From: Cliona cf. orientalis
Taxonomy: Eukaryota > Porifera > Demospongiae > Clionaida > Clionaidae
DNA: 64,000 nucleotides
Direction of reading: 5' to 3'
Assembly: GCA_963930775.1 (NCBI GenBank)
Contig: OZ005700.1
Coordinates: forward strand, 6,458,609 to 6,522,608
Shown here one piece after another: positions 3,393 through 59,800 of this stretch; the first letter of the stretch is position 1; the number at the start of each line of letters is the position of its first letter. The notes under the pieces were generated by a model. It did not search any database, was not told the origin of the DNA, and was given only the letters and a program-made list of their open reading frames with translations. Position numbers and translations under genes: made by a program.

Positions 3393-3610
3393 ATACCCGT
3401 ATACGTGAAAAATTCGCCAAACCCAGCTACCTTTTGTATTACAGAAAAAGTTTGTGGAAAAATTTTTCGCTATAATATCATCTATGCAATCCTTACCACA
3501 GCATAAAGATTGATAAACATTTTTGCCAATGAGAGCAGGTAGCAAAATTTTCTCCTAGCGAAAATTTCCAGAGAAATTTTCTAACTGAAACTTTCTATGT
3601 ATACGGTATA
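3393..3610. mobile_element. Degraded short inverted-repeat element (MITE-like)
   Basis: The left end reads ATACCCGTATACGTG and the right end CATGTATACGGTAT or close to it, an imperfect terminal inverted repeat. The inside is AT-rich with paired GAAAATTTT-type blocks. There is no coding capacity. The ends resemble the TACCGTA/TACGGTA ends of the better preserved elements at 24.8, 26.6, 35.1 and 35.8 kb. Confidence 0.4.
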
Positions 3611-19277: not shown

Positions 19278-22200
19278 TCAAAAATCAGTATAGTCCAGTA
19301 GTGGTTCTCTCAACTCGACACTGATGCTGCATGTGCCTTCCAGAGATTCACTATCTTCACGATTGATAACCACCTCCAACTCAGTGGACTCCGCTAAAAA
19401 CTTGGAGTAGTCCCCCGAAGAAGATAACTTTATCTTCTCATCTACATTCTCAATGCTGTCCGTCAGTGCCCTCCTCCTTGAGGCAGGAACTAACTGAGAA
19501 AGCTTCCCTTTTATTGAGTCGAGGCTGATGTTCCAATTAAAGTACAAGTTTAGGTGTTGAAAGACAGCAAATATCACAATACCAACAAACTCCAGGAAGG
19601 CTATAGTAGTTGATGTATAAATGGCACCTTCTTGGCGACCTCCAATGTACTGTACAAACAGTGTGGCAGCTGACAAGATGCCCAGGTTGGCAAAGAAGGA
19701 GAATTCCAGAGCATTTAGTGGCCATTGTTTGTAGACACCCCCACCAACCCAAGTGAATACAGACAGCAGCTGCATGCTTGCACAGATCAGCAGAAGAGAT
19801 AATGTTGGATCCAAAACAAAGATAATAATGAACAAAATTCCACGAGAGAATAGTAAAAATCCAGTCCAATAACGACATTTATCTTTGTAAGGACCCACAA
19901 AGGCATCAAGGAAAGGCTTACTACGATTCACCCAGTGGAAGGGTCTGTGAGCAGATACAGCCTGGAGACATGTCACAAATAGCAAAGCAAAGTAAAAGGG
20001 TAGCAAGATAAACAGCTGTGTCGCAAGACTGAGAACAAAGAGATAGACATGCTTCCCTTTTAAGTACTCAATGTTGGCATCGTCAAACCATAACGCAGTG
20101 TGGCTGCCGTCAGAGTACTCTATTGTGGCAAAGGAGATCCCAGTGATAATGGCTCGTTGGAGCTTGCCCACAGACAACAAGAATATCGTGGCGAGGACTG
20201 GTACGGCTTTCTCTCCCAGCAGCTTAGCTACCGAGGATAGATAATGACCCAGCAGTATGACTATTCCTATAAGTGCCCAAAGGTATACAGGAAATGTAAA
20301 CTGAAGCAATGTCTTTGCATACTGGTCCATACCATCGTAGAAGCAAGTCTTAATCCCCAGGTCAAGGTTCAGCCAGGCTATAAAGGTGGTCATGGGATTA
20401 TTGTGACCAGGAGGAAAGAAGATGCCCTTGTTGACCTGAAGGATGTTGGCATAGAAGATGAGGCCATTGATGGCACCAACAGAGACAGTCAGCGAGTTTA
20501 GTAGCAGAAGGAGTATGATCAATAGAAGTCCCATTATGGCAAAAGGGATTAAGAGAGCTAGATAGCTGTTGGTGCACACCTCACACTCATTGGTCCCCAG
20601 TGTCAGGCTGAAGCCGGACTGACATCCACCACAGATGATACCACCTCGATTGAATGCACAGAGTGTGTCAGCCTGGGAGAGGTTAACATCCACCTCACTT
20701 GGAATGCAATAATCTAAGGGGCGATAATAATAAAACAGCAAGAGCAAGTTATCTTCGGGATCATTTAAGTTCCTGCTGAACCACATGGGAGGGACCCTGT
20801 GCACCATCTCGGTGGTGATATCACAAGTCACTATGCGTGCCACTAGAGAGGGGTGGCACTGGCAGCTTGTGGGGTCACTGGAAAGGATGAACCCTGGAGG
20901 GCAGGGGAGAAGGCGAATCGTCACGACAGTTGGATTTTTCTGTATATTTGAGTTCTCCAGAGCCAGCAGTAACTGCAGCTCAGTGTTCAGTTGTGTGGAG
21001 AGGATAGTGTAGCTGAGTTTAGTGCAGTTTCGTCCCACCTGCTGAGCAGTCTCAGATGGCTGTAGAGCCGCAGATTCTCCCTTTGAGCGATCACGAATAA
21101 ATGTTCCAAGAACAACACCTGGTGAAGTTCCGTTTCGTTGACCAATTGCAATGACATAGACTTCATACTTTTGTCCAGGAAAAAGAGTGATATTGGGATT
21201 ACTAGCATTGCACACTGGTTGTGAATGATTACAGATACAGAGACGATCGGGACGGGAAGAAACCAAAGATGTATCGTTCCTTGCATCTTGAAAAGTAAAC
21301 ATTTGATCAAATATCCTATGTGAGGTTTGATCAATAACAGCATCAACAGTCGGAAGAAAGAAGCAGCGATCAATTACACCTCCATAGATGGCATTCCCAG
21401 CACTGGAAGCTCTATTGCCACTGAATATGATTTGAATATTCAGTTGTTTAGCAACATTGATCTTACTAGTTTTCCGATTTATAGGCAGAACCAGCTCGGG
21501 ACCACTAAGAGTTTGATTGCTGACTGTGGATGATTCAAGTTGCCAGAAGCAGAGCAGTGAGGATCGATAGTTCAGACTGGAAATGAACATCCCTCCTCCT
21601 CGGAAGTGGGCGGAATTATTGAGGAATGTGACTGTCGTGTTTGGAGTGAGGAGCATGATAGAGGAGCCATGGAGGGACATACCTCCACCATTGATACCAG
21701 AGTTTCGCACAAACTTAATGCTCCCACTGAAACGAAGCAGAGAGGCATAGCCATACAAGGCTGAGCCAACATTGTCTTCAAATGAGCAGTCAATGAATGA
21801 GGAGTACTGAACAGAGATGAGCTGAACTGCATTAAGTAGATCCAGCTCAAATTGCTGAAAGGAATTGGGGATTTCCGTAAGTGGATATGTATTGTTTCTA
21901 AAGGTACAATTTTCGAAGAGAAATTGAGCCAGTACTACACTCTGTACAGGTTGCAGCTGGTTGATGTACAGAGCAGATCCAGGGCTACCGATATTGTTCC
22001 TGAAGGAGCAATTCTTAACGGATATCAGAGCAGCTACACCAACATTAGCGTCAGTTTGACTGAAGTCAATGTTCATAGCTCCACCTAATACTGCATTATT
22101 TCCCACAAACTCTGTATTGGTGATGGTCAGCAGGTTGGCATAACTGTGTTCTCGTTTAGGTTTACATGAGGGTCTGAAACCAGAGGGGATTCTCTTACCA

Positions 22201-23322
22201 TAATTAAAGAAAAGACCTCCACCAATAAATTGAGTTCCAGAGAGGATGGTGAGCACAGAAGGGCGGAATAAAGGATTGCTGTACCCACTGAAGCTGTTTG
22301 CAATGGACACAGAAGAATTGTCAACAACATTGTACATTCGAAGTGCTAAATTTGCCCCCAAATGAGCTGCGTTATTGATGCTGGTCACATTATTCATGTA
22401 GACATGCACACCGTACGCAGTTTGGGACATGACTACAATGATACCACTACCTATGGCAAAGGGGGTGAGATTAACACCATCGGCTGTTACCGTGGAGGTG
22501 ATATTTAGGGAATAAACGGGAGGGTTGTCCTGATTGATGCATTGCGGTGGATCCACAAAATCAATTGCAATGTTTGCTCCACCACAAATGAAATAGCGAT
22601 TGGTTATCTTATATGACATTGTGCTGTTGCACTGTGGTGATGAATAGGTGTAATAATTGTTGAAAACGAATCTGGAATTCTCAATAATGGAGTTTCCAAA
22701 TAAGTTGATTATCAGCAGTCCATACCCGGTACTGTTTTGCACAGTAACACTGGAAATGATGAGATCAGTAACGCTAGCCACTGTAAGGGCCATTCTCTCA
22801 AGGGAATCAAAGAGGAAGAAAGAGTTTGCATAAATCCTAAAAGTATTGTTAATGAGGTCCCCACCAACGCTATATATCAATGCCACACTTGGTGAACACC
22901 AAGTGCGAGATGGTCAATTGAGATACATTCAAGAAATAAAATCCAGCAGGCTTGGAACAATAAATCTCCGCACTTTGTTTGGCATTATTGGCTATCACAG
23001 GCTCTGCTGCCTTTAGTGTGATGTTGCTAATGTCTCTAAACTCAATCAAACGACTGAAATTCACGACGTGCCTTCCTGGTAGAAAGATGAGAGTAGTGTC
23101 ACTGACAGGCATCCAGCCTCCTTCAGACGTTGACCCATTCCCCCACATCTCCTCAACAGTGAGGCAGCGGAGAGCTCCATCTTGACTGCTGGTTGGGGGA
23201 CAGCTGCATCTGGCTAGCTGACCTACTTGGCTGGTGGGAGTAACATAGATGAGCCCTCCATGAGCTATATGTATGCAGTGGCAGAAGGCTAGCCATGACA
23301 AGACAGTGAAAACCATCCTCAT
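19278..23322 (-). pseudogene. Beta-helix / multi-pass membrane protein, copy B, split by a 4-bp insertion
   Basis: Paralogue of copy A in the same orientation. The signal peptide (VFTVLSWLAFCHCIHIAHG), beta-helix, Cys-rich segment, membrane region and tail are all present. Compared with copy A, four extra bases (a TATA/ATAT repeat at about 22872-22878) shift the frame. They separate 150 N-terminal codons (22870-23322) from about 1,200 downstream codons (19278-22886). No other break was seen, so inactivation is recent, or this is an assembly error or an allele. An acceptor-like TTACTAG precedes the ATG, as in copy A. Identity to copy A is patchy, with exact blocks beside diverged ones, suggesting gene conversion. 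Confidence 0.8.
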
Positions 23323-24141: not shown

Positions 24142-25589
24142 TCAGGTGATGATGGCTGAATGAAGTGCTGAAAACTGGGCGGGGCTTAGCACAACTCGCT
24201 GTGTGGAGCCACACCCACCACCTGTAGTTGATACCGGCAGTCTCAGCCGAGCGGCCAGCACAGCAGAACCAGAACTCTCACTCACAGCCTGGGGAAAAGA
24301 AATACAGGGAAAGTGACAGTTATTACCAAAGCAACAGTGCACAACATCAGAGTAGCTCTTTTTCAATTATTGGCCTACATAGTATGATCTAATAATTATC
24401 GTTCAGCACAATTTTCCCATCAAGATAATCACTGAATTGTCAACACTTAAACTTCATGGAGGATGTGTAGTGTGGATGGGGAGAGAATAGCATTCCTTGT
24501 AGGAATGTGGTATCAAACTTTTCAGATTCAGTTATTTCATAATCCTCCCATTCATTAGCATGACAGTAACATGAAAAGTTGGGAGTGGCCTGGGAATGAG
24601 GCTAGTGTACAGTTTTGGGAAAATGGAGTATCTTGATCTTGGTAAGTGTACCTTTGAGAACTGTGGAGATGTGAAGGAGGTGATCTTGGTGGAGACCACA
24701 CCCCCAGGGTACTGGCTCGCCAATAACCTGTCAACGTCTTGCTTCAGCTGGAAAATGAAATCAAATTAATGCAAAGCTTATTACCGTACCCTCGCGAAAG
24801 AGGGCCCACTACGGAATGTCGGCCCACCCCCCACTTTGGGCTCAATTTCCTGCTAAGGTCTAGTGTTTACTCGAATATGCGCCCATGCGTAGCTGCCCTT
24901 GAAAGCGCAGCTCAAATACATGAAATGGTTGGACTGTACTTCGTAATCTATGTAAGATCGATAAGTAACGTGCTAAACACCCGTAAAACTAAGCCTGGCT
25001 AACTATAATTATGCCACGTTTCAGCACAAATAAACGATCGTACACGGCTAGCGATAGTAGCCACGCCCACTGAATACGGCTGCACTCAACGATACACTGT
25101 GTAGTATCGGACCGCCCTTGCTCTGGATTGGTAACCATGCTTGAATATGGCTGTAGCCGCTGCTACTACTCAAATTATGAAGCTAGCGTGGGTAACTTAC
25201 CTGGGCGCTCTTTCGAGTATAAACGCGATGCTGATACCTCGAATATCGGCCCATCCCCCAATTTTGGCCCAATGTAAGGTGCACCGCCCATGGGCCCTCT
25301 TTCGCGAGGGTACGGTAATATTATTATGGAAACCAAGTACATGTAATATTCAAGTAGATAGACAATTGAAAAACAAGAACATTATCCACATGCACACGTA
25401 CCTGCACAGTTTTGCGCTGCAGCTGTGAGATGTGGGCTATTTGATTGGAGAGCTGCTCTCGTGGAGAAGAAGAAACTCCTTCAGTCGCTGGACCATTTGT
25501 TACAATCACTTTGGGAAGAGACATACCCTTGAGTTCCTGATGAAAGAGGGACGATAAAATTAATAGGGATACAGGGAATGAGGGAGGAA

Positions 25590-25655
<66 letters not shown>

Positions 25656-28600
25656 GTACTTCGATGAGTGCAGCTATTCGTTTGAGGACACTCTTCTCCT
25701 GATCAGTCTGGTTTTCACTCTGCACTCCTTCCTTCTCCTTCTCTTCCTGTTGCTGCTCATCACTCCTCCTCTTGACCACCAGCCTCTTGGGCACCCTCAG
25801 TGGTGGTAGGGAGCTCAACTGAGCCTGTAATAACACAAAGACATGTGCATGTAAAACTCGTTGGTTTATGGACAGGCTTACACACTACCTTTGCAATTTG
25901 TGCTTTGAGCTTCAAATTTTCATCCTGAGAAAAGCCAAGCGCCTTTCTCAGAGACTCAACCTGAAAGTATACGAAAGAACAAAATCAAAACTAGAACTGT
26001 AAACCTACAGCTTATATACATGATGAGCAAATATGTGTCATAATTGAGACACATTGTACATCTCTCTATTAACTTTTAGTTTTGTCTGGCTATCTGACAA
26101 CACGCTGTACAATAACACCATCTCTCTCACCCTGGCTAGTAGGAGAGGGTTCTGGAGAGCTGCCTGTAGCTGATCACCAGAGACTGGAGCCGCCTCACCT
26201 CCCTCTGCTGTACCATCACCAGCCCCCGACGCCACACCACCGCTGACTCGGCGAGAAATGAACGGACTCCCGAATGGGCTGCCAAAGGGACTCCCCCTGC
26301 TACCATAGCGACGACCAGCGATGTCGGGCATCATGCTCTTCCTGGCCTGCTGATCCAGCTTCTTCTCCATCTCACTCTTGTCTGTCTCCAGGGCCTCGAT
26401 GTCTCCCTGAAGAATCTCTATCGTCTTGTTGAATTTCCTATAGTTTTTGTCATATCCAAGGGAAAGAAAAATAATTAAACTTAAACTGACACTGATTACA
26501 ATGATTGAACTAAAAATCAATTTTTGAGGAAAGAGGCCCAGGTACTTTGATTTGCTTGTTACCGTATTTCTTCTAAAAATTTGGCATGAAAATAATAATA
26601 TTGCTTTAGCTTCGCCGAATTTTTAGAGGTTAATATTCAACATTCTGTCTGCGTGCGCATTCCATTCCTGTTTATAGCATATACGCATGACGACCTTTGC
26701 CGAAAAATTAGAGACTATATTCAATCATTCGGTAAAGGGTGCCGAATAATTAGAAGGGCTGGATTTTTAGAAGAAATACGGTAATTATTCTTCAGGCAAG
26801 GCACTCGAATAAAATTTATAGAGAGGTGCTGTGGTTAAACATCAAGGGACATCTAAAATGTAAAATGACTTTCTAAGAGCGATACTGCACCACTCTCCCT
26901 GATCACCTTACTCTTAGTTCTCTATTGGCTTGACCCACCCTCCTGTACCTACCCTATCTTGACCCCCTCCTGTACCTATCCTAGTTTGACCCACCCTCTT
27001 GTACCTACCCTATCTTGACCCACCTTTCTTGTTCCTCCATGATGTCCCTAATCCTCTCTGTCTCCTCCCTCTCCCTGGCCACCTGTCGGGCCGTCTCCAC
27101 ATCGGCTGACTCCACCTTCTTCTCCAGCATACCAATCTTCACTCCAGCCTCACTCAGCTCACCGGCCTGCAGAGCAGGCAACAGGCAGGCAAAAATTAAT
27201 GATAAGGGAATGAAGATTGGTTGTTTCAAGGTATATACTGTGCAAAGGGTTATCAGATCCCTTTGAAGAGAGAATTCTATTCCCTTTAAAAAAGGCCTAG
27301 CAACTTCACTGCTATAGGTACATGCAGGTGGTAAACATAATATTATTATTATTATACTGCGCGTAGCATATCCGTACAGTATAGGTGGTTATACATGTAA
27401 CTTGCCTATATACATAACAATATCTCCATGCGTACTAAAAAAATAATTATATGTACATGTACATAATATAGTATAAACACATTTACATGTACATGTAGCA
27501 TCATTATCGTTGAGATTCCCTACTGTAACATGCGTCTGCACATAATCACACGCCTAGTAAAGCCCTCCGTCTTCAGGAAACGAACAACAACCAACATTTT
27601 GTGAGGTATCATAACAATACTACATGTACATTGTTCGTACCTTCATTTTGAGTGATCTCTTTAGCTCGAGGATGTCCTTCTGCCTCTCCTCCAGCTTGAA
27701 GCCAAGTCCCTCCACATCGCTCAGCTCCGACTTGACAGCACGGGCCCTCACACTAGCAGGACGCTCGGGCTGAGTAGGAACAAGGGAGGAAGGATTATCA
27801 CACAGAGCACCACAATGCATAGTGATAGTGGGAAAGTTATGAACAGATAAAAATAGCGCATCCTAATGCACATGTGCATGTACATATACATGTACATATA
27901 ATGTCAGTTTCTATATGTGTTACCAATCTCAAATCTAGGGTGTATTGCCTGCTCAGGGAAACCTACAATGTAATCCCAGCAAAAGGCATAACTCGGGTGC
28001 CTTAGCTTTGAGAACTACATTGTGTAGGGGTGGTAGACATACATGTACATGTATATATATGTGCAGATGTACACCCTATAAGAAATGCATACTTCCTAAA
28101 CTTTTGTGTCAGCACTGGAATCAAGCTAAAAAGGTCAGACATTGACCACTAACCTTAGACTTGGGTGCAGTAGTGTCATACTGTCCCTCTCCCAGAGCAG
28201 TGAGGAACTGGTCCAGGGCAGTGGAGTTGGAGGTCATGGTGGAGCGAAGGAGCTCTCGAGGCTGCTGCTGCTGCTGGGAAGAACCAAACTCCAACAGGGT
28301 ACCACTGCTCACCACTTGATGAACAAACTCCTCCAATTCACCACTCGTCATCTTCTCACCTTCTGCAGGGAGGGAGGAGGGAGGAGAGAGAGAAGGAAGG
28401 TTTCAAGTGGGGAAAAGTGATAATACATGATACACGTCATGTGCACTATAGTTTAGCTACTCTGGTACTGATCCTACTCGACACACCTGCAAGACTGTTA
28501 GCCCTCTGGCTGGCCTTTAGCTGCAGCGCCTTGAATGTCTCACTGATGAGCAGCTGTCTCCTCACAACCGTGGCCAGTGACTGGAGCACAGTGCTGTCGT

Positions 28601-31600
28601 ACTGGAGGGCCCTCTGGGACTCAACGGGGGGCACCTTACGACGGATCTACACAAGCACCAAAATTAATGATCAAACTCACTTCAATGGTGAAGGAGCAAT
28701 TTTATTATTGATGTGAACCTACCTTTCTGCAGGCCTGCCTGAGGTCATTGTTGAAGCTATCCAGCTCCTTAGTCTGAGTCACAAATTGACTGCCCTCCTA
28801 AAATCAAAATCAAGAAAATGTTACCTACATGTACATGTAGGTATTATGTACATGTACATGTACATGTATATGCATGCATGTGCATCTTTTAACACATACA
28901 CCCCATTCACCCATGCACGCATACATGCACATCCACACATACACAGTGACACCACATACATGTACACGAAGTACAAGTAGGTACATGTACGTATCTTACT
29001 GGAGCTAGAGCCCTGAGCCTGAGCAGCTGGAGAGAGATGAAGTCACACCCAGCCATGAGGGTCCTGGTCTGATCCAATAGCTGGCCAGAGTAGCCATGGA
29101 CACTGCCCTCATAGCGAAGACGACCCTCCAGCAGGTTCTGATAATCAAAGGATACAAATAATTGTGTACATGTACATACGTTTCGTAGCTGCCATCAATT
29201 ATCTTTATGATGATAATCTTCCAGACTTGTATATGGTTACGGGTACATGTAGAATTGATTGCTATATGTATATTAATACAATACCTCAAAGTGGCCAATG
29301 GCCTTGTCAATTCCATGCAGAGGAACACTTTCATCAAGCTGTAAAGGAGAGAGAACTTCATCAGGACGAGGCACCAGGAAGATGGATTTTCATACTCACC
29401 TGCTCCCTCTTGAGAAACTCAATGAGTACATCAAGAGCTTTCTCGTGAATGGTGAGATCATCTCTGACTCCGCCCATCTGACGGTACAGCTGCACATCAC
29501 ACTCTTCAAGAATACTAGGTGCATGAAATTTTGATGAAGAAACGATCTAAACTCCCTTCTCTGCCGTCATGATTGAGTTGGACTATTTTGTCAAAAAATC
29601 TCTCTCTCTCTCTCTCTTTAGAGTATAGGATCAGATCAATGGGGAGTGAGAGTACAATATGTAGAGATGTACATGTACATGTACAGTGAGGACAGCGGAC
29701 AGACATCATTCCCACCCTTATACAATACTACATCACACACACACTCACTTCCCCCTCTCTCCCCCACCTCCTCCCTTCCCAAATTCACACACTACTGTTT
29801 TACCACAGAGGACTGACCAGTTAGCCCGGTTGATGAGCATCTGTAGGGAGGAGAGTTTGTAGATGAGCAGGCAGGCAAAGGTGAGCTGGTCTGTCTGGGA
29901 CGGGGAGACAGAACCGAGGGAACCAAGGGCATCGTCCACCTTGTGCTGCTGCTTCAGCTGGTCCACGATCAGCTCAGCCTTGAATAGCAGCCGAGGGAGA
30001 AGCATCAAGACAAGAAGGGCATCATAGTCACCTGATACGCCAAGACATACATGTACGTGTAAGTGTAAAAAACATATTACATGATATATACAACAGTTCT
30101 TTTAATAATTAGGAAATCTAATGTGACATACATGTACATGTAATTCCTTGGAAGTAATCAAGAAAATGCTGTCTAACTGCCATTAAATACACACTCAAGA
30201 TTGTTAATTACTCTAAAAAATGGTACAGTAACGTTAAAAAATCATATTCAAGTGTATCCTTGAAACAGTACGGAACAGCTAGTACTAGTGAATGATGCGA
30301 TGGTCATGTGATACGTTGTGAATAACGTGATGGTGATGTGACAGGCTCACCTCCGCTGATGAGGAATGTGTTTGGCATGAATGACTTGAGCAGGTTGATG
30401 TGCTCGGCAGCCTGCTGGGCATCAAGCTTACGAAGCTCAAAGTCTATCGTCTGAGGAGGAGAGAGAAACACCTTTACTGACAGAAGCACGGATAAGTAAG
30501 AGAGACAATTGCATAGACACACAATAATTTTCACATGCCTGAGTAGACATTGGGCTTTGATCCCTAGACTTGTAACCATGTAAACGAGCCCCTCCAGTCA
30601 CAAAAAGCTACACATGTACATTGTAGTGTTTAATAGGGAAAGAAGGCATTGGCTAGAGGACTGGTTGAGGGAGACAAACTTATCCAACGTTTCATGAATT
30701 GAGTGGCCTAGCTCCCTCACCCTGGCGTGCGCCTTCATGGTGGACTTGAGCTGCACGTTGAGGTTCATCATTGTCTGTGACTGGGCCATGCTATCGGCCC
30801 CACCCCCTGCCGACTTCTCTCCCCTCTCCCTCAGCTCAGTGATGTCATCCTGCAGGTGGCGGACCAGATCACGGAACTTCTCAATGGTCTGCTGCTGGTC
30901 TATGATGGTCTCCTGGGTGGCCTCAAGCTTACGCTCAGCCTGCAGGGAGGGGGAGAACAGTGGCGTTGACATTGCAGCTACATATATAATATACACTGAA
31001 GGTGTAAGTTATTTATGTAACACGGAGTGCACTCAGTATTCTAAATAGCAGCTCCAGTTGCAACAAAGTAAGGTAGAAATGTACACATATAAACCAACTC
31101 CTCTTTCTATCTCAGAAAGTACACACACTCATTAAATTGAGAGCAGAGAGAGGGGGGAGGGGGTAGGGAGGAGAGACCTCACCTGTCTCACTCCATTGAG
31201 GCTCATGTCCAGTTCCTCCCTGAGGTCATGCTCCACCTCCATCCTCAGTTCCTCCTGTTCTTCGCTGAGGTCCCTCAGAGCTTCAAGGTCAGCCACCGTC
31301 TCGTTCAGCTGCTCAATCTTCTCCTCCAGCTCAAGGTTCTGGTCGGTCAGTTTCTCCACCATCTCCTCTGCTCCCAGAGCATCGTCAACCTGCTCCTTCA
31401 GCTCATCAATAATGGCCTCTGCTTCCTATCAGTCGATCAGTCAAGAAAAGGTCAAAAAGTGGTACATATAGTTTGTCGATGTGTGTGTGTGCGTACGTGC
31501 AATCAGTTTGGCCACACCCACTTGACCCTACTCACCTGTAGCTCATGTGCCAGCTTCTCTTTCTGCTCCTTGATCAGATTGAGTTCGGATGCATTCTTCT

Positions 31601-34374
31601 CAAAGTCCTTCTTCACTCTCTGGTGCTCTACCTTATCCTCTGCCGAGATATCTCGCAGCCTGGGGTGGGGGGGGGGGGGGGGGGGGAAGCAAAGGTGGTA
31701 TGATATAGTATAAACTACATGTAGCTGCAGCTTCTGATTACAAGAATGAAGTCTATTTCTGGGATAATTTTCTTATACTTAGTCTATAATATCCATGTAC
31801 CATAGCATCCCCACCCACTCCCATAAGTATCCATGTGGCCAAATGTGAGTTACATTTAAGCACCCAGAGACACATACTTGTGTTTCAGAGTGCATACAAG
31901 TGAGCACATAATATGTACATGTATGTGAGAGAGAGAGAGAGGTAGAGCCCACCTGACTAGTGCCTCCTTGAGTCTGTTGTTCTGTTGCTCCAGCTGTTTG
32001 TACTGAGCATTGGCGGCCGCTCCTTCCACTCCAGTCTCACTGATCTCCTGCTTGATGATCTCAAGGTCAAGGGTCAGCTCCTCCACCTTCTCCTTGAGAG
32101 CCTCAGCTTCCGCTTGGAGCGTCTCAGACTAGGAGGAGGGAAGGAGCGAGGGGGAAATAAATTATGAGTGCTATTTGTGTTATTAGCAAGGTTGTGCCAT
32201 TTCTACTGATACTATGCTTTTACTTTTATTGCTATTATTGTTGTTAAAAGCCAATATTGAACCCGTAACTCAGTGTATAATTATAATCAGCTAGCGACCT
32301 CTACGTGTGCCTCCGTAGTTCTAGTTTGTATCACTCAAATTACGCTACGGTATTTCTCTTGCCAACTTACCTTTTCTTCCGCCATTTCCTTGTCCAGTGT
32401 TGCCATCTCGACAGCATCGGATAGCTCTCTCATCTCTTCCTCCACCTTCTCCCTCTCCAGCTGGTGCTCCCGAGCTTCCTGGAAGGTCAGAGTTCATCAC
32501 TGGAAGATGCCTGTGGCTAGCAGCTACCCAGTAGTGCATTCTTTCTTACCTTCTTTGCCTGCTTGAGCTGCTGCTGCAAGTCAGCCTGGGACTCGGACCA
32601 CTTGTGCTTGTACTCCACCATCTGCACCGCACAGGTAAAGAGGGTAATGGTCGTCACAATTATCACCCGTAATTGGTAATGGTCGACTAGTGCATTTGTA
32701 CATAGTACTCCCTCCCCCTCTCTCTCCCTCTCTCACTCTCTCTTACACACACACACAGCTCACCTGCATTAGCTGAGCTTTATACTTTTCGAGCTCCTTG
32801 ATGCGTGCCTTGTCATCAGCTCTCTTCTGCTGCAGGATGGCCAGCCTCTGTCTCAGGTCAGTAACCTCATCCGAGGGAGGACCTTGGATGGGCTGCTCGC
32901 TAACAGGGGCTAAGGTCACCTCAGGGACCTGGGAGAAGGTTGGGAAAGGTACTGGGACACTATTCACAAGAAATAACAGAGGATCTGTCCAATAATACCA
33001 TAGCATAAAAATACTACAAGGTTTCTCTATATGAACATGCAATGGAGGTTGTGCCACCATCTCAAGGCTACATGTAGATAGTTTCATATTGGTACTGCAT
33101 GCAGATATTGGTACACTTTTCTCCCCCAACAGGCTAATTATTGCTACATGTAAGTGCCATAGTACGAGGGAGGTTCTCATTGAATAGCTACAATGTAAGT
33201 ACAATATTTATGATTGAGTCCTCCCTCCTTCCCTTACCTGGACTGGTTCTTTAGCTGCTGGCTGCTGTGCACGTGTTCCTCCTTTGCCGGCAGAGGCAGT
33301 GGGGATGGAGGAGACCTTCTCACCCCTCTGGGAGGGAGGGGAGCGGCCGCTAGACTTGCTGGCTTGCTTAGACTGCCTCAGTTTGGGGGAGGTGGAGGAT
33401 GAAGCACCGCCCGAAGGTCGACGCAGCTGGGAGGAGCCCGGCGCCGGGATACCAGAGGGACCGGGGATACGAGACACTCCGGGGCTCTTGTTGCCAGCCA
33501 ACACCTATGGGTACATAATAAAAAATATTATTATATCACAGCGTCATGTACATGTGTACCTGATTGCTCCATCACTCTCACTGTCATTCACTCACACACA
33601 CTATCACAAATACGTACAGTATACATGTGCATACACATACACCACACATTACTACACATTGTGGAAATGACAAGAGCTTGCTATCATTAAAGTTGGCCAT
33701 GACCCAGGACTCCCTCAGTCGGTATAGTACCGGTCACATGCCTCAACTAATGACGTACATACACTATCCTGTATCATACATACCTGGAGCTGTTGTTGTC
33801 GGACAAAGATGCCATGGTTGTCTCGGCAGTTGAAGTAGGTCTTGCCCTGGACCACTCCGTTGTTCTTCCCGAGAGCCTCGTCCAGCTCCACACCAACCCA
33901 CTTCCCAGGCGCAAACATCGTAGAACCAACATACCTGGGAATATACAATTACAAAGGGTGTCACAGTGGAACCCCTCCACAAGGAAACCCCTGAAATAAG
34001 GACGTCTCATACCATGCAGCTCCAATATATTATTTGAAGTGCTCAAACTACCACTGAAATCAGGGCACCTCTTTCAATCAGGATATCCCCAGAATACCTG
34101 TAGAGTTCTGGTGTATTGCTATTAAATTTTGTTCCCTTTTTTTCTCTACTGATAATTTTTCTTTTAATAGGGAAGAAGGCATCTGATCACAAGCACATCG
34201 ACGTACCAGTCCCAAGGAAAGAGTGTTTCTATTCAAACTTTGCTGTCATAATACGAGCTAGCTATATCAAAACATGCAGTTACTACGTACGTATACGTAC
34301 CTCACTATTCCGTTCCATCCCTTTTCCTTGAGGCAGACACGATTGCCAACTCGAATGGTAGTTTCCTCAGCCAT
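24142..34374 (-). CDS. DCTN1: Dynactin subunit 1 (p150Glued), 26 exons, 1285 aa
   Basis: Exon ends, 5' to 3': 34374-34301, 33934-33784, 33504-33238, 32928-32764, 32621-32550, 32478-32371, 32128-31953, 31659-31536, 31425-31183, 30939-30721, 30450-30351, 30031-29818, 29514-29400, 29338-29285, 29137-29000, 28797-28723, 28646-28487, 28362-28154, 27769-27641, 27166-27024, 26437-26131, 25960-25889, 25824-25660, 25536-25402, 24747-24652, 24288-24142. All phases agree. Residues 5-75 are the CAP-Gly domain ([17 protein letters not shown]) for microtubule and EB1 binding. Then come a Ser/Pro/basic linker (76-164), coiled coil 1 (about 185-530), the intercoil domain starting [14 protein letters not shown] (534), and coiled coil 2 (about 890-1040). 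A conserved C-terminus follows. The human protein is 1278 residues. It links dynein to cargo and microtubules. No defect is visible. Confidence 0.96.
24540..24600. mobile_element. Solo arm of a foldback repeat in a DCTN1 intron
   Basis: TGGGAGTGGCCTGGGAATGA resembles one arm of the foldback elements at 36686-36787 and 40077-40159. The matching left arm is degraded. Confidence 0.4.
24782..25317. mobile_element. 536-bp MITE, TACCGTA-ended family 1, in a DCTN1 intron
   Basis: Left end TACCGTACCCTCGCGAAAGA and right end TCTTTCGCGAGGGTACGGTA are exact inverse copies. The match continues through GGGCCCA. The outermost TA on each side may be the target duplication. No coding capacity. It lies between exons 24 and 25. 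Confidence 0.85.
25592..25652. repeat. (GA)n microsatellite beside a DCTN1 splice donor
   Basis: About 30 GA units. On the transcribed strand the intron begins GTACTACC and then runs into about 60 bases of CT. Confidence 0.95.
26560..26783. mobile_element. 224-bp MITE, TACCGTA-ended family 2, in a DCTN1 intron
   Basis: Left end TACCGTATTTCTTCTAAAAA is inverted exactly at the right end (TTTTTAGAAGAAATACGGTA). An inner inverted pair involves CGAATTTTTAGAGG and CCGAATAATTAGAAGG. Different internal sequence from family 1. It lies between exons 20 and 21. Confidence 0.85.
31662..31686. repeat. Poly-G run (poly-C on the transcribed strand) at a DCTN1 acceptor
   Basis: A 25-base tract, G except for one T, lies directly upstream (in transcript sense) of exon 8. 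The polypyrimidine tract of that intron is therefore almost pure C. Confidence 0.9.
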
Positions 34375-34608
34375 TGTCTCGATCTTGGCCCTGTTGGCTC
34401 ACAGGAAAAAACTTTTCACCAATGCGGATATTTAGAGAAGTACTTTGACGACCATTACCACTCCAACCCCAGCTAGCTATATCTATAATACACTTCTGAA
34501 ATTAAAAATTAATGTGTTGTAATAATTATTATGAGTTGCATGTAAAAGAAAGATAATAATAATAATATTATACTAACACATGAAAACCACAGGTGCAGAA
34601 GGAGAGTA

Positions 34609-37600
34609 TTAGCTATATGACTGCTTTAGTTTTGTGGGAGAACTGGAGGGCAGTACTGGGGGTGGTGATGGACGACTGTACATGAATGTGGACAGCAGTA
34701 CCAGTGTTGAGCCAACCATGAAATACCTGCATGTGTATGTGTGATGTATGGTGTGGTGAGAGAGAGAGAGAGAGAATAATCATAGCACACTACTCGTGAT
34801 CTTCCAGCTCAGTGAACACATCAGCCACACCTACCTAAGCTACATGTACAATGACATGACATGTGTAAGTATTCCTGACATAATAAATTATTATAAGCTG
34901 ATGCACACGCTTGGGGTATGCTCCATGTACATACACGCAAGAGCTTGTTACACATACAATGGTTTATTATGAGTACACACAAAAGTATCAGATTCTTGCA
35001 TATAGTTGAGGTATGTACCTTGTATTAGGGAGTATGGTTAGAGGGCTAGGGTTAAGCTTCAAAACACTTATATACCGTATGGCGGGTAATTTTCGTGGGG
35101 TCTAATTTTGTGGAAAGTCCAAAAAGGCCCTCAAAATTAATTTTCGTGGTTTTAAATTTCGTGACAGCAACCAGTCTAGGGGTGTGGCACTGCTGCATAG
35201 GCGATGATGTAATCGATACACGCACTCGCGATCTTCTTTGTTACTAAGCCATACCTACAGAGACTTGGACAAAAGGCATGAGATAGAAGAATATTAGTGT
35301 CGAAGACGCTATCAGCTGCATGGATGACAGTGGCTACTGTTGCTTGCTAACACTGGAAAGTGTTGGCCGCGCTGCCACCATGTTTGTGGCCACGCCCATC
35401 ATCATGGACTCGCATACGTAGTACCATATCACCGTAGGCATTAATTTTCGTGGGTGGGAAAATTTCGTGACTGCCAAGTCAACCACGAAAATAACGAAAA
35501 TTAGCACCCCACGAAAATTACCCGCCGTACGGTATTCCTGGAATTATAGGGTGGTTTCAACGAAGTCTTGCACATGGCATTCTGTTATCAACATTAGCTT
35601 CCTCAGGGCACTCACCAGCCCACCCTAGCCCACCCACTTCCCTACTCTGATGAGTACAGCTGCATCAAGAGGAAGCTAGGCTAATTAGTGTATGGGGAGT
35701 CTAGTCTAGTCTAGTAGTGTAGGGGTGTGTATCACACACATGGCAGTCACAGGTAGAAAATGTACACAATTCCGTTTTTAAGTGGCTTAAATTAAATTAG
35801 GTCTCCTACATGTATTACCGTATTGTCTCTAATTTAACGGACATCTCTAATTATCCGGACACCATTTCGAATTATTTTTTTACCTCTAATTACACCGGAC
35901 AGTCAATGAAGTTTGAGTTTTTGTTGTTCTAATTATCCGGACATCGTTGGACAGCTCGCGCTAGCGTGGTACTGATCGAGCAAAATTTGCAATGGACAGC
36001 TGCTTCTTTGGTGGTACTGAAGGAGGCGAGTTGTTCTCTTTCACACCATGAACAGGGAGCTCCAGGTACCGTCTCATTTTCTTAATCTCTGCAGCTGCTC
36101 GATCGCACGTCCATTTGACCGAATGCGCATGCGTGAAAGCGTGTTCTAATTCATCGGACGCTTCGAACGCCGGCTATTTTCGTGTGCTCTAATTATAGCG
36201 GACATTGACCAAAATAATTATTTTTCTGGTGTCCGTTAAATTAGAGGTAATACGGTAGTATACTTTGAAATTTCAAGTACATGTTTAGCATATACAATGT
36301 CATGCAAATTGAAATTACTAATCTTGAGCTTTCTGGGACACTAACTGATGGGATTATAACATTGCAAAGACAATAATGTATGTTTCTACCTGTGACGCCA
36401 CACATATTATAATAATATGCAGATCATTGTATTGCAGTACCCTTGGGGGTAGTGAAGTGTCTTTATTAGGGAGGGGGTGTTGGTGGTTGTAAATTTCTTT
36501 ATGCACATGCATGCACGTATATACATGTCTCTATTTCAGGGCTACCCTCATTGTAATACCTATAGGTCCCAGAGTTTAGATGTAGCATTGCACTATAACA
36601 ATTAATGATTATCAACAAGCACAAAAAATTTAATGTTTCAATCCCTGATGCACAAACCATATTTTAGTGTAACACTGTTATAATATAGCCTTGTCCCCTG
36701 GCCACACCCACATTTTCAATGTTACACATACACATGTATATACATGTATGACATTGAAAATGTGGGAGTGGCCTGAGAACGAGGCTATGATACTCTTACT
36801 CACCATGAGGGAGTGAAGTCACTGAGAATAAAGTAAGAAACAACAGAGGAGATGACAATGGAAACTGAGGTGGCAAACCCCTTGAGAATGTTGTCGGCGT
36901 ACTTCATCACAGCTGCCACAACCAGCCCTCCTAGAGCCTATAGTTGTAGACAACACACAAAAAAAGTCACCCACTTGTATGACTACACATACAAGTGGCA
37001 CACATTGTATCGTATTTCTGCGGTAAGCATAAATGCACATATAGATCTTCACGTTGCAGCCTGAATGCTAACTGAAGGATGCTACATCATGCCCTTCCAC
37101 CAAGAGGGTAGCTACAAGCAGCTAATACCTCACATTAGGGGGCAGGGGAGATAACGTAGTGATTTACTTGACCACAATGCTTTCAACGAGGGCTTCCTAA
37201 TTGCTGGATAGCTGCAGTTACCACTAGTTCTTCTGTCCACTTCCCCCATACCCTATTGATGCTCTGGGGCTGCAGGCATGCATGCATGCATACATACATA
37301 GACTCAAGTCTGCAGCGCTTGTTTGGAGGTTTTTGCGAGGCAGGAAATCGAGCTTCTAACTGCATCACTTGGCAACCAGAAGCCATCCAGCCCTATCCCA
37401 GGCAACTGTGGCAAGGGGCTTCTTCTAAACCATATTGGCTTCACATGCAAGTACATCTGCCAGAAAGGATGGGGTCCAGTGGGTTGATGCTATAAACAAT
37501 CCAGCAAGTGGTGTGATTCAATTCTTTGCATGTGTGAGATAATTTATGTGAATTTGACGAGGAGTGTGTCTGTATGAGCGTGATGTCCTACCTGCAATGT

Positions 37601-40600
37601 GATAACCACTAGGACAATGAGAGAGTATCCCTGGAAGAATCCACCCGTGATGACAGCTTGGAAGTCAACAAACAAGACGCCAAACAGGCCGATGAAAAGG
37701 CTCAATAATGCTGGGAAAAAGGCAAAAAATTATCGTTAGTATTCTCTCCTCCCTCCCTTTCTCCTTCTCTCTCTCTCTCCCTCCACTCTCCTTCCTTCCC
37801 TCCCTCTCACATAATTATACAAGCAAGCATCACGGGTACAACTCACATAATTGTATATTTCTAATCCACATGGATGTGTCTGACTGTTTCAACACCTTCT
37901 CAATGTAAACTCCCGAGAATCCGCTGGATACACACGCTAGGAGAACAGCTCCTAGTCCTATGGCTACGGAGTTATAGTAGCCTTCCACTGCCTTCCCTTG
38001 GTTCGCCTCAGAGGGCCACTGAGAGTCGAAGCATATTACATGTTTTGTATGTGTGTGTGTGTGTGTGCAAGCATGCATGTGTGTTTGTTGGTAGTTGCTT
38101 AGCAACCAAAGTTTTTATAGGCAATTTGCCGGCTATGGGAAGGGGTTGGGTCATCATAAAGTAGGCCAATGATGAACAGAGGTCAACTACCAACAAAATA
38201 GTTATCTGCCAGTAATAGGGGTGCATTCAACCATGCATCTCATGCACCCCAATTACTGGCAGATAACTATTATATGTGTGTGCAGTGTGTACGTGTGTGT
38301 ATGTATATTTGTTTGTAAAACTCAAGTCACTGGTCATGTCCACACACTCTGAGATACTACTCAGATAATACTGTGTCCACTACCTTACACGACAAAACAT
38401 CACAACAAATCATCTCTGGCTATGTAACTATGTGCATACGGTAACATGCGTCAATCAGGGAACATTAAAAAATTCCAAGGCTAGCAGGATTAGGATATAC
38501 ATGACATTAATTTTGTACCAGCATTCCTGTAGTGGCCCTGCCATCGATTCTGCAGCACCGCAGATCACAGCACATACCAGCAACAGCCACCCCCACACAC
38601 ACACATGCCAATTCCTCAATCGCTAGGATATTTCCTGCTTGTACAGACACACCACATACACCCACCCATTCATACTCATGCCCTATATAATAATATATAT
38701 ATATATACAGGTGAACGACTGGCAATCAGCTGACGGTTTGTTCATTCAACAACCTAATGTGTACCTAGCACAGTAGCTACTGGTGAATAGGCAGCCTCAT
38801 CCCCAGGCAAGCTTTCAATATCATACTGTGCAACACTGACAACTGGGAGTGGCATTAGTACAACAACAACAACAACAACATTACCACTTACGTATATGTA
38901 TGTGTGACTGTTTTGAGGATGGAAGGTATTTCATAAACAGTGTCACTATTCGCTTATTATCATGTTATTTCTCAATAATTTTATGATCTTTCTGTAAAAT
39001 TATCCCGTGCATCTAAAATACCAATACCTTCACTAATTGTGTCAATTAGCTGAGTAAATGTCGCAACTTAGTACTCTCAGGGTATAAAATGAATGTATAT
39101 GTACATGTAGCTAATCCAATACATGTACATGTGTAGATATCCAATTCTAAGGACTAGCCCTGCAAAAATGTTATGACCCACCAGCCAAAAGTGACTCCAA
39201 AAGGGGCTGAATTATGTGACCAATTGAGAGCATTATCCTCTAGAGCAGCCATCAAGACTCACTTAAGTGGTAAGCCACTACTGCAGTGAAATAGAGTTGG
39301 CTCAACACGGCTTGAGTGGGAGGAAATTCTCATAACAAAACACTCCCCCTCTAATACTCTCTATAATTATACATGTACCCCTCCCTCCTTCTCTACTCAA
39401 ATGGCCATGGTAGCGGCTTAGAAAGGGAGTCTGTGGAGCTGATACTGGAGCTAAAGAAATCACAAGTAAGAATTTCAACAGAGCTATATTATACAGCAAA
39501 TACAAGGACTACCGGTATCAGTGACAAACACTTTTCAATTCATACAACTAGACCCTTCCTCCTTGCTTGTGCTATACAATGAGGAAGGATCTAGATTGAC
39601 CGACCACCTATCAAATAAATTCTCAAGCAACCCCCCCCCCCCCCCAACTTCTCCTTGTCCTCACTAACATCATGATATCAGCTTGCAGAAATACTAGAAG
39701 GATCACACAAGGGATAGCCATTTAAACTGATTTACAGACCTCTCCCCTTCAACTCTCAGTAGCCAAGGGACTAGTATGTTGTAGGCTTACCTGTACAAGA
39801 GCCACAGCAAACATTAGGACCACCAATGATAGCCATTTTAACTTATTCAGACTTCTACCGAGTAAGACCACTGAAAACAGAGCAGTAGTGAGAATCTTGA
39901 GCTGATAAGTTACCTGCAAAGGAGGCACAAACATGCTACAATTATTAGTTCATCATGATAAGCGATACAACTGCTATGCCATGCACAAATTATATTCAAG
40001 CTGATCTTTATCAGTTGCAGGCTCTGGATAGCTACCTCCATCTATTCCACAAATATTCCCAACTGTATCAGTCTCCTAACCTTGCCCCAAGGCCACTCCC
40101 ACCCATGTTTTCAATGTTACACACAGAAATATGTGGGAGTGGCCTGGGGGACAAGGCTATCCATCTCCTCCCTTCATCCATCCTCCCCTCAGCCCACCTC
40201 ACCTCTCCTCTCACTACAGTAAGGTCTTACATGCGTGGACATGGCTCCAATGGCTCATAGAGTGTCGCGTGTGAGAGCAAGGGAAGGTAACAGAGAGAAC
40301 CAAGATTGGATTCTTTAAAGGATTAGTACAGTCACATTTTATGATTTTGCATAAAATAATAGCCCATAGGCCACTAACTAACCTGGAAAGTTGCCGCATT
40401 TAGATGAGAAAGAGCAATGTAGAGTAGGTTATTCTGTATTGTGTAGAGCACGGAAGGCACCGACAGTCTCAGCGTCTCAGCCTTCTTATCTATGATCTCG
40501 GTTTTCAACATGGCGAGAGTTCTAGCAGGGTCAAAATCATTGCTACGAAATATCATGGAGACACAGATGATAAATTTGACAAGTTCTGTGAGCACAACTG

Positions 40601-56848: not shown

Positions 56849-59800
56849 ACTTCAGTCCCTCATGGGAATGAAGATTATCTACTAATCAATGACCCTTAAT
56901 ATTATTTTAAGCCAGGCCAGGTACACAATGCATGTACATGCATGTGTGGCACATGTGCATGCATGTGTGGGAGCCGAGGCAGTGTGCATGGTCCACTGAG
57001 CTCCTCACCATCCATAGGCCACTACTCACTAACACAAGAACTTCAATCAACATACCAATCCAGCGTTTAAGGTTAAAGGGAGACAGCAATATACCTATAC
57101 CATACCCAATACAATATACTTTTAGGTGAGTGAGGTATGTGGTATGCCTTATATTGTCCTTCATAACACAGTCAAATAAGCTAGGCAGGTACACCATCAT
57201 CCATTCAAGAATAATGCTTGCACACAAGTTACATATAGGAATATGGTACGTATGTGAATAATAGCAGAAAACTGTTATTACTCAAGCTGGAACAGCAGTG
57301 GAGCCAATCTCTACAGTGGGGAAACTTAGGTGATTTTTAATTTGGCGAATAATTGAATTTGGTATAGATTGCCATATTAAAAACTCAATTGAACTTAATG
57401 TATGTGTACCTATGGCAGTATGGATTTAGATTGCCAAATTTAAACTTCCCTAATACCAATGGAGAGCCATTTTGAGGTTACCTGCTACATTATGGTAAGT
57501 TTCTAAGAGAACTACAGCACCACCATGAAGGCCAAAACTAGTCCATACTTATTAACCCCTGGACTATTATTGCCAAGCTGTTTGTGTTCATAAAGTAAGT
57601 GGCAACTAAAGCCATGGAGAGATGTTTTGGGGTCATACTGTAATTGACCCTGCATTGAATTGTAAACACTTGGACTAGCTGCCTGTAAGCCAGCTGTATA
57701 CACACGCAAGTGCATGGCAAGTCTTGACCATATTTGGGCATAGTTATTTGACCCACATGCAAGACTAGTGCTCACAATCATATCATGCATGCACATTGAG
57801 TGAAACACATGCTATAATATTATTATGGCTCATGCTAGCTGGCAATGAGGTAACAGCACTTCAGAACTACTTAGGATAAGGGGACTCCATTTTAAGAGTT
57901 TTATTAATAGCAGGTGTCTCTAGGATTTAGTGGAGATTCATGAGAGGTGGATAGGTTACCCAGGGGTTGGGATCAGGTTCGTGCACTCCTATCGGCCACT
58001 TATGAATGCCCCTATATTCAAGAAGGTCATATTCTTTATCAGGGTCTTCCAGATTTAATTTCTTACTCTACCAAAGAAATTTATTGGAAGTACATGTAGC
58101 TTCTTATCCAGGCCATCCCATGTTTTCCAACGTTGCAAAAAAATCGGGCAACATTGCAAAACATGGGATGGCCTGAAGTGTGCTCATCTAATAGAATAGG
58201 CGAGTGATAATGGATGTAAATATACCCCATAATATACCATATAGCGGGTATTTTTCAGGGGTATAAATTTTCATGATTTAGCCTCCGGGATTAATTTTCT
58301 TAAGCTTGGTTCTAAATTTCATGGCTCTTGATGATCATACTTGCTATGCCCCATTCACCATCATCAAGCAAACCTGCTGATGTGACTTTCATCGAAGTGA
58401 GATTTTCCAGTTTCATACTGCGTTGGATGGTCGATGGTCCACTATATGCAGTGGTCCGCCACTGCATATAGTGGGTAATTTTCGTTATTTTCGTGACTGC
58501 TCTAACAGTCCTAAAATTTAGCATCCCACAAAAATTTGCCACTGTAGATAAAGGTCGTCTGGTAAAACCTCCTGCGAGTGTGCATGCAATTGTGATCAAA
58601 CGCATGGCATCTGCCTCCAACCTGTTGAGTGTCCAGGATTTCGCAAAGGGCGTGCGAATTTTTTGAAGCCACGCCCACTTTGGGGGCAAAACCATGCCCA
58701 TTTCGATCGCTTTTGAGAGAAACTATCAATCCTACTAGCCCAATCGATCTGTTTTTGAACGAGTTTTCTGCTAAAGCATGCCAAGGTGAGCCATAGCAGT
58801 AGTTTTCTTAGTTCTGTAGACAGAGAGGGGGGTTCCATTTAGCCTATCAATCAGTACTTGGCATAGCCTATCATCAGTACTTCTTTGTTCTAGGTGCAGC
58901 CCAAAGGGGGCTTCCATGAAACCCTAGGAACCACCCTGAATCCGCCACTGATATGGTAAGTACATGTACTTACAGTTGGCTACTTTATGCTTTTAAAAGC
59001 ATCTATGGAAACCACTGCAAGGAGCCTGTGGTGCCATAGCCATGCTGGAATCATGCTTACAGATACAATGTTGTGAGAGCAGGCACATACAGTGCAGATT
59101 CATTGTCTTAGCTAGTTGCCAGATCAGCCCAGTGGTAGCAGCACAATGCTAGCAGCTGAGCACAGGACAATGGTGATTGACCAATTAAAAGTTCAAGACC
59201 TGGGTGGTTACCCCACATGAACATTAATAACTATTATTATTGGCATCTAGAAGCAGGTAGTACAGCAAATAATATGGGCAATTGTACTGTGAACTTTCCA
59301 CCCCGTCACGCAGTACATAGGAATGTAATCTCAGTTGCAATTTTAAATTTAACCCCTATCACACGATATATATCATCAACGCACTAGTAGATCGGGTGAC
59401 CATTACCTAATGATAACTCAAACCTGTTTTTTTGGTGTCCAGCTGCTTGAAGTTGGCAGGCATGTGTCTCAAGACAAGAGTTGTCAAGTGAGAGTCCATG
59501 TTGTCAGCATAGTCCTTGGCATAGGCCAGTTCATCCGGGGAGAGGCGAGAGGGAGAGTGGGACTCACGCGCTGAAACCTCCTGCTCCAGGATGTGAACAA
59601 CATGCTTCTCAATCTAAAAATCAAGACAGGAGATGATCACTCTAATAATCTCTCTCTCCCCCCTCTCTCTTTCCCCCTCCCCCTCCCCCTCTCTCACACG
59701 TTTTCCTCCCCCCAATCTATTCTCCCTTTCTAACCCAGAACTCTATCTCAGCATGCTGCACGCACACACTATCTCAGACTGACCTTTTGTATTCTATTTC

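Follow-up and report, generated by a model that had tools for sequence, protein, structure and literature searches.

Four MITEs in the introns of two neighbouring genes

The analysed window is a 64,000-bp stretch of the Cliona cf. orientalis genome (C12:6458609-6522608), and the genome searched comprised 217 Mb in 149 contigs. The window holds two neighbouring genes on the minus strand. The part seen of the first spans positions 24649-34374, with a start codon near 34374, a CAP-Gly exon at 33784-33936 and more exons down to 24649-24747. This dynactin-1-like gene was taken to be dynactin-1 because it has a CAP-Gly domain (1.4e-22) along with a Dynactin match that falls slightly short of the Pfam cut-off (1.1e-4). 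The second gene, represented by its 3' part (34609-38114), encodes a nucleotide-sugar transporter, with a Nuc_sug_transp match (1.2e-17) in an exon within 37830-38114; the later exon 36815-36937 and the last exon 34609-34722 were assigned by eye. Elsewhere in the window, the minus strand of 19278-22913 holds a 1211-codon open frame with a weak cEGF match only, which by eye has the look of a membrane protein.

The original prediction described four elements with the shared ends TACCGTA...TACGGTA in the introns of two neighbouring genes, and we recovered all four, with both ends, at the predicted positions. F1 (24782-25317, 536 bp including both TA copies) carries perfect 27-bp inverted repeats (24782-24808 and 25291-25317) and lies between dynactin-1 exons 24649-24747 and 25411-25536. 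F2 (26560-26783, 224 bp) has perfect repeats of 21 bp (26560-26580 and 26763-26783) and is found in another dynactin-1 intron, flanked by exons 26347-26436 and 27008-27166. F3 (35073-35534, 462 bp, repeats of about 38 bp at 95%) and F4 (35816-36257, 442 bp, 28-bp repeats at 35816-35843 and 36230-36257, 93%) share one intron of the transporter gene, between exons 36815-36937 and 34609-34722. The interiors were said to be unrelated, and blastn at E<=0.01 indeed found no match among F1-F4, nor any mutual similarity when the interiors of four further families (see below) were added.

All four are repeated throughout the genome. First-look candidates numbered 1100 for F1, 1214 for F2, 1157 for F3 and 301 for F4, and among the best 40 scored per family, 31, 40, 36 and 39, respectively, aligned end to end (counted by eye). 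Both heptamers were exact in 40 of 44 copies (F1 8/8, F2 11/12, F3 9/12, F4 12/12), these 44 being the best matches with the four window copies among them. The repeat ends of F4, allowing up to 2 mismatches, were found at 250 and 237 places genome-wide, as compared with 0 for the reversed pattern; by eye, none of the first 100 places listed (C1, C2 and part of C3) were paired at transposon-length spacing. At one location (G000:C1:29906258-29906532), two F4 right ends point the same way, separated by 247 bases. With lengths of 224-536 bp, inverted repeats and many copies, F1-F4 present the features of MITEs.

Two degraded members had also been proposed in the window. The one at 58236-58540 is related to F3, matching it at 75% over 61 bases and 81% over 37, and also matches the end of a transposon described below (L087). 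For 3393-3610, which ends TACGGTA, the proposal fared less well, the sole likeness to a transposon end being 26 bases that match the L088 stretch, and we list it as an uncertain, possible member. Inside the F3-type copy, window positions 58439-58474 form a perfect palindrome with 16-base arms.

A common terminus inserted at TA

The heptamer TACCGTA occurs at 44,345 places in the genome (22,199 + 22,146), below its reversed, CpG-free control (51,068), and the raw count therefore proves nothing alone. The commonness of the word is what speaks for chance as the origin of the shared ends. Against it stands a scan of the window for pairs of one heptamer in inverted orientation (span 80-1500 bp, 16 or more of 22 bases paired). 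TACCGTA returned 4 such pairs and the other 179 CpG-containing rearrangements at most 1 each, with the exception of ACCGTAT, a one-base shift of TACCGTA, which returned 2. Not counting the four window elements, TACCGTA occurred 81 times in 343 kb sampled near repeats (window included, flanks of the four window-overlapping loci counted twice), ranking first of 180 against a median of 21. As the heptamer is moreover constant across copies and present at its predicted place on transposons, in windows positioned beforehand (see below), chance retains a negligible probability, and the claim that such sharing exceeds random expectation holds.

The same 343 kb contained further inverted pairs, in agreement with the prediction of several families with the same ends. 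F5 has the ends TACCGTAGAATCCCGC and is present at four loci, F7 has the ends TACCGTATTTTC, and F8 is a single copy that reads TACCGTG. In F9, one end is TACCGTAGGTCGG and the other, in L070, TATCGTA, while L025 holds a 104-bp inverted pair with TACCGTA or one-off ends. When the heptamer was searched as text in the literature, no transposon-end paper was among the matches listed, and a related string occurred in no paper. Ends of the CCGTATTTT type occur in other animals.

TA had been put forward as the duplicated target, which is borne out by four unambiguous empty sites for F4 and a weaker one for F2. The former rely on F4 copies nested in other repeats, of which uninterrupted copies were available for comparison, and each has a single TA. 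The copy in L056 sits in F5 (uninterrupted in L042, L058 and L052), that in L062 sits in F9 (uninterrupted in L070, L007 and L069), and those in L058 and L061 sit in F1-like copies (compared with L001-L008). For F2, comparison of L050 with L046 likewise gave a single TA, with a 10-base indel close by. Among the empty-site matches, none spanned an insertion of F1 or F3, and three candidates were set aside: L059 as ambiguous, L051 as overlapping the window itself and L054 as a simple GA repeat. No bases beyond TA were duplicated in the copies compared. TA being the duplicated target, the element proper is CCGTA...TACGG, and two of the seven shared bases belong to the target. Some elements were seen directly adjoining one another at this dinucleotide: in L041:1047-1512, F2 begins right at the terminal TA of F7, and in L088 a transposon end abuts F1-like sequence at its terminal TA. 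An apparent repeat shared by F1 and L088 was rejected, as it corresponds to this F1-like sequence next to the transposon end.

Pogo-type transposons bounded by the same ends

An autonomous element with the same ends was expected, and three pogo-type transposons of about 3 kb proved to be bounded by them on both sides. They were reached from three low-scoring but open copies, read after six other DDE_1 loci (see below) out of 150 scored DDE_1 matches, and in all three copies a correctly oriented TACCGTA was found upstream of the transposase. The complete elements are C8:654988-658092 (3105 bp, 27-bp perfect repeat), C5:7069100-7072053 (2954 bp, 28-bp perfect repeat) and C6:9299472-9302469 (2998 bp), the last comprising both ends of the L087 element. 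The elements have TA at their ends and differing flanking bases. The transposases of C5, C8 and L083 matched DDE_1 at 1.4e-14 to 2.4e-14 and showed D-D-35-D spacing in 3/3; HTH_Tnp_Tc5 was found in one, below threshold (0.0016), and BrkDBD was absent from the domain matches of the three. A sequence-based structure search with the transposase returned no match. At least 102 stretches of the genome match the C5 transposase.

For 20 further copies, the interval from 80 to 330 bp ahead of the predicted transposase start was fixed in advance as a 251-bp window. An exact and correctly oriented TACCGTA was present in 14/20 of these windows (17/23 with the first three copies), as compared with a chance expectation of about 0.03 per window from local word frequency. 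The exact word was missing in L086, L091, L094, L101, L102 and L104; with 25-38% identity, L101, L102 and L104 are the three remotest of the sampled relatives. The 17 positive ends are partly non-independent, as they include the near copies L083/L103, L087/L096 and L097/L105, and the full conservation of the heptamer in their alignment follows from selection by exact match, the independent test being the pre-placed windows. Transposase copies as little as 39% identical have the TACCGTA end in common, with differing inner repeats. An inner box lies at about positions 14-23, often AAATTTTCGC, and a similar stretch is found some 18 bp further in.

This terminus was not seen at every DDE_1 locus. 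The six read first (L075-L080) had no TACCGTA ends around the transposase: F4 MITEs lie next to other elements in L075 and L076, one F4 end is present in L077, and in the psq-type L078-L080 paired ends were absent within the stretch read. Also in this genome, L076:1857-4521 is a Tigger-like pogo element with DDE_1 fragments, TA and an inverted repeat of similar form, but it ends in TACAGTGGAACCCC instead.

In the C5 and C8 elements, a second open reading frame lies between the same ends as the transposase; when intact, this second gene combines a HIRAN with a Ulp1-like part. In C5 it is convergent, open and 306 aa long (L082:12-932 and L081:281-1018 are examples of this second gene), and its sole Pfam match is HIRAN, just under the cut-off (3.9e-5, 23.8 bits vs 24.7). 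The remaining half shares 44% identity with its counterpart in the C8 copy, which matches Peptidase_C48/Ulp1 above the cut-off (2.7e-5); the HIRAN-like part of the C8 copy is in a different frame. A structure search with the protease half gave weak matches to OtDUB/ULP-type chains (7.7e-4 and 0.0023). Within 4 kb of the transposase, the second gene was convergent at 28/62 loci, in another arrangement at 4 and absent at 30. These loci derive from 64 of the 102 transposase matches listed and from 58 of 136 second-gene matches. The 38 transposase matches left out are additional fragments of places already included, among them three on the opposite strand (C4, around 4.04 Mb), and the 78 second-gene matches left out mostly cover just the protease half at other locations; such omissions could make 28/62 too low but not too high. 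The protease half also matches, at about 38% identity, many open frames of roughly 1,100-1,150 aa with no transposase of the pogo-type clade nearby (for example G000:C1:37248085-37248573 and C2:5621688-5622176), perhaps another protease-bearing repeat family. An open frame with, by eye, the look of a NACHT-type NTPase lies next to the C8 transposon (L084:3-1298, minus strand).

Origin of the MITE families and relation to known systems

Among the window elements, F3 could be linked to a particular transposon. Its repeats scored 80 and 51 against the ends of L087 and L096, the 95% shuffle level being 24. The other end of L087 was predicted and then found, giving the complete element C6:9299472-9302469, whose transposase frame has one stop. 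The first 93 bases of F3 match one end of this element (83% over 94) and the last 101 bases match the other (85% over 101). Judged by these alignments, F3 is a deletion relative of the C6 transposon. For F1, F2 and F4, no match beyond the heptamer was detected among the 17 transposase ends, the best being the left end of F2 (p 0.06). F9 scored 29 with the L100 end, the level to exceed being 24 (p 0.005, one of 16 comparisons).

The original prediction held a single transposase responsible, reading only the short end and cross-mobilising all families. The identity of the outer heptamer across families would fit such an enzyme, as would the fact that F1, F2 and F4 lack a cognate among the 17 ends. 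On the other hand, the same end is carried by many diverged transposases, down to 39% identity, whose inner repeats differ; F3 has about 95 bases in common with its own cognate at each end; and five bases plus TA, at 44,345 places, offer too little for specificity alone. We consider a single enzyme improbable, and the "one transposase" is better replaced by a varied clade whose terminus is fixed. F1-F4 are very probably non-coding, cut-and-paste MITEs that insert at TA with its duplication and belong to an end-sharing group with autonomous members of about 3 kb from the pogo superfamily (DD35D), the putative source of F3 being one of these. F1, F2 and F4 were probably moved by members of the clade that are as yet unmatched or lost.

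For these three families, other movers have to be considered. Tc1/mariner-type (DDE_3) or other TA-inserting transposases with coincidental CCGTA ends might have mobilised them: DDE_3 transposases are abundant (548 candidates, of which 150 were scored, many of them open), and the three families are without a pogo-type cognate. Such movers appear unlikely, since pogo-type elements of this genome bear the same heptamer, which would have needed two origins. A source in ISL2EU or Harbinger-type (DDE_Tnp_4) elements, which have 143 matches in the genome, is far less plausible still, as the ends described here have TA duplication and CC as opposed to AT and GG, and paired TACCGTA ends were found at 0/30 loci within 1.5 kb on each side, a span that cuts longer elements. 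These 30 loci, which showed few inverted repeats, if any, from one 1.5-kb flank to the other, were not retained as candidates.

In the proposed mechanism, the catalytic core would need the terminal CCGTA beside TA, and the DNA-binding part of the transposase would read the inner box as a lineage-specific site. Drift of the inner box from lineage to lineage would then leave the MITE families with only the outermost bases in common, each family keeping the constant terminus and an inner box that follows its cognate transposase. With a fixed terminus and a drifting inner box, families are expected to be identical in their outer bases and unrelated in the rest.

All three transposases possess the DDE_1 domain with the DDxD triad characteristic of the pogo superfamily (E about 1e-14), and by domain content we assign the autonomous elements to this superfamily. 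Of the N-terminal HTH domains that mark pogo transposases, such as HTH_Tnp_Tc5 or CENP-B_N, the domain search gave the sub-threshold HTH_Tnp_Tc5 match in 1/3. The described family closest in DD35D spacing, repeat length and TA is Passer, the comparison being one of published descriptions, end sequences apart. In the available parts of its sources, Passer is characterized by a single ORF for a transposase of 400-500 aa with DD35D spacing, by inverted repeats shorter than 30 bp and by TA duplication (PMC7386202, PMC9976928). The DD35D spacing, seen here in 3/3, is also typical of Fot. In contrast to the single ORF of Passer, many copies here adjoin a HIRAN/Ulp1-like gene, and where Passer has BrkDBD plus HTH_Tnp_Tc5, or HTH_Tnp_Tc5 alone, we found HTH_Tnp_Tc5 below threshold in 1/3 and BrkDBD unlisted. 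Because the single-ORF feature disagrees, the DNA-binding match lies below threshold and the comparison is one of descriptions rather than trees, we file the elements under the pogo superfamily only.

Similar relationships between transposons and MITEs have been described, as far as the accessible portions of these reports go. Bogo of Blepharisma is a pogo-type DD35D transposon with thousands of BogoMITE copies, but it has a TAA duplication, C-rich ends and one MITE family from one transposon (PMC9942856). Coral CMITEs comprise several families with differing repeats that keep the short outer motif CC[C/T]T, although they are piggyBac/TTAA elements with a conserved interior (PMC2872659). Since coral MITE families sharing a short outer motif are already on record there, the principle is not new; the TACCGTA terminus together with a two-gene pogo lineage may be. 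A Ulp1-type protease is encoded by Ginger1 and Mutator DNA transposons (PMC2836005), which however belong to other transposase superfamilies; the Ulp1 of Ginger1 is fused to the transposase, and HIRAN goes unmentioned in the part of that report at hand. Our literature search, with Repbase and supplementary tables outside its scope, found no report of a HIRAN or Ulp1 gene in pogo elements among the matches listed; the sections consulted of PMC7386202 mention neither Ulp1 nor peptidase, and those of PMC7325037 neither peptidase, accessory nor Ulp1.

We tentatively propose, as a reading that may well prove wrong, a previously undescribed two-gene pogo lineage in which a DD35D transposase is paired with a convergent gene for a HIRAN-Ulp1 protease, the TA-CCGTA terminus stays fixed and the inner repeats are lineage-specific. 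Its protease, acting on SUMO or ubiquitin, could aid transposition or escape from host control, and its terminus could have seeded many unrelated MITE families, perhaps on the order of 10,000 copies by rough estimate. Associations between proteases and transposons recur, for reasons that are unsettled, and with a HIRAN/Ulp1-like partner, pogo-type elements would join the transposons carrying de-SUMOylating or de-ubiquitinating proteases. The coexistence of many unrelated MITE families in one genome is usually argued from sequence only, and here it would be testable with transposases and MITEs of the same genome. Together, these elements would constitute a natural series separating a fixed, probably catalytic terminus from inner boxes that vary from transposase to transposase.
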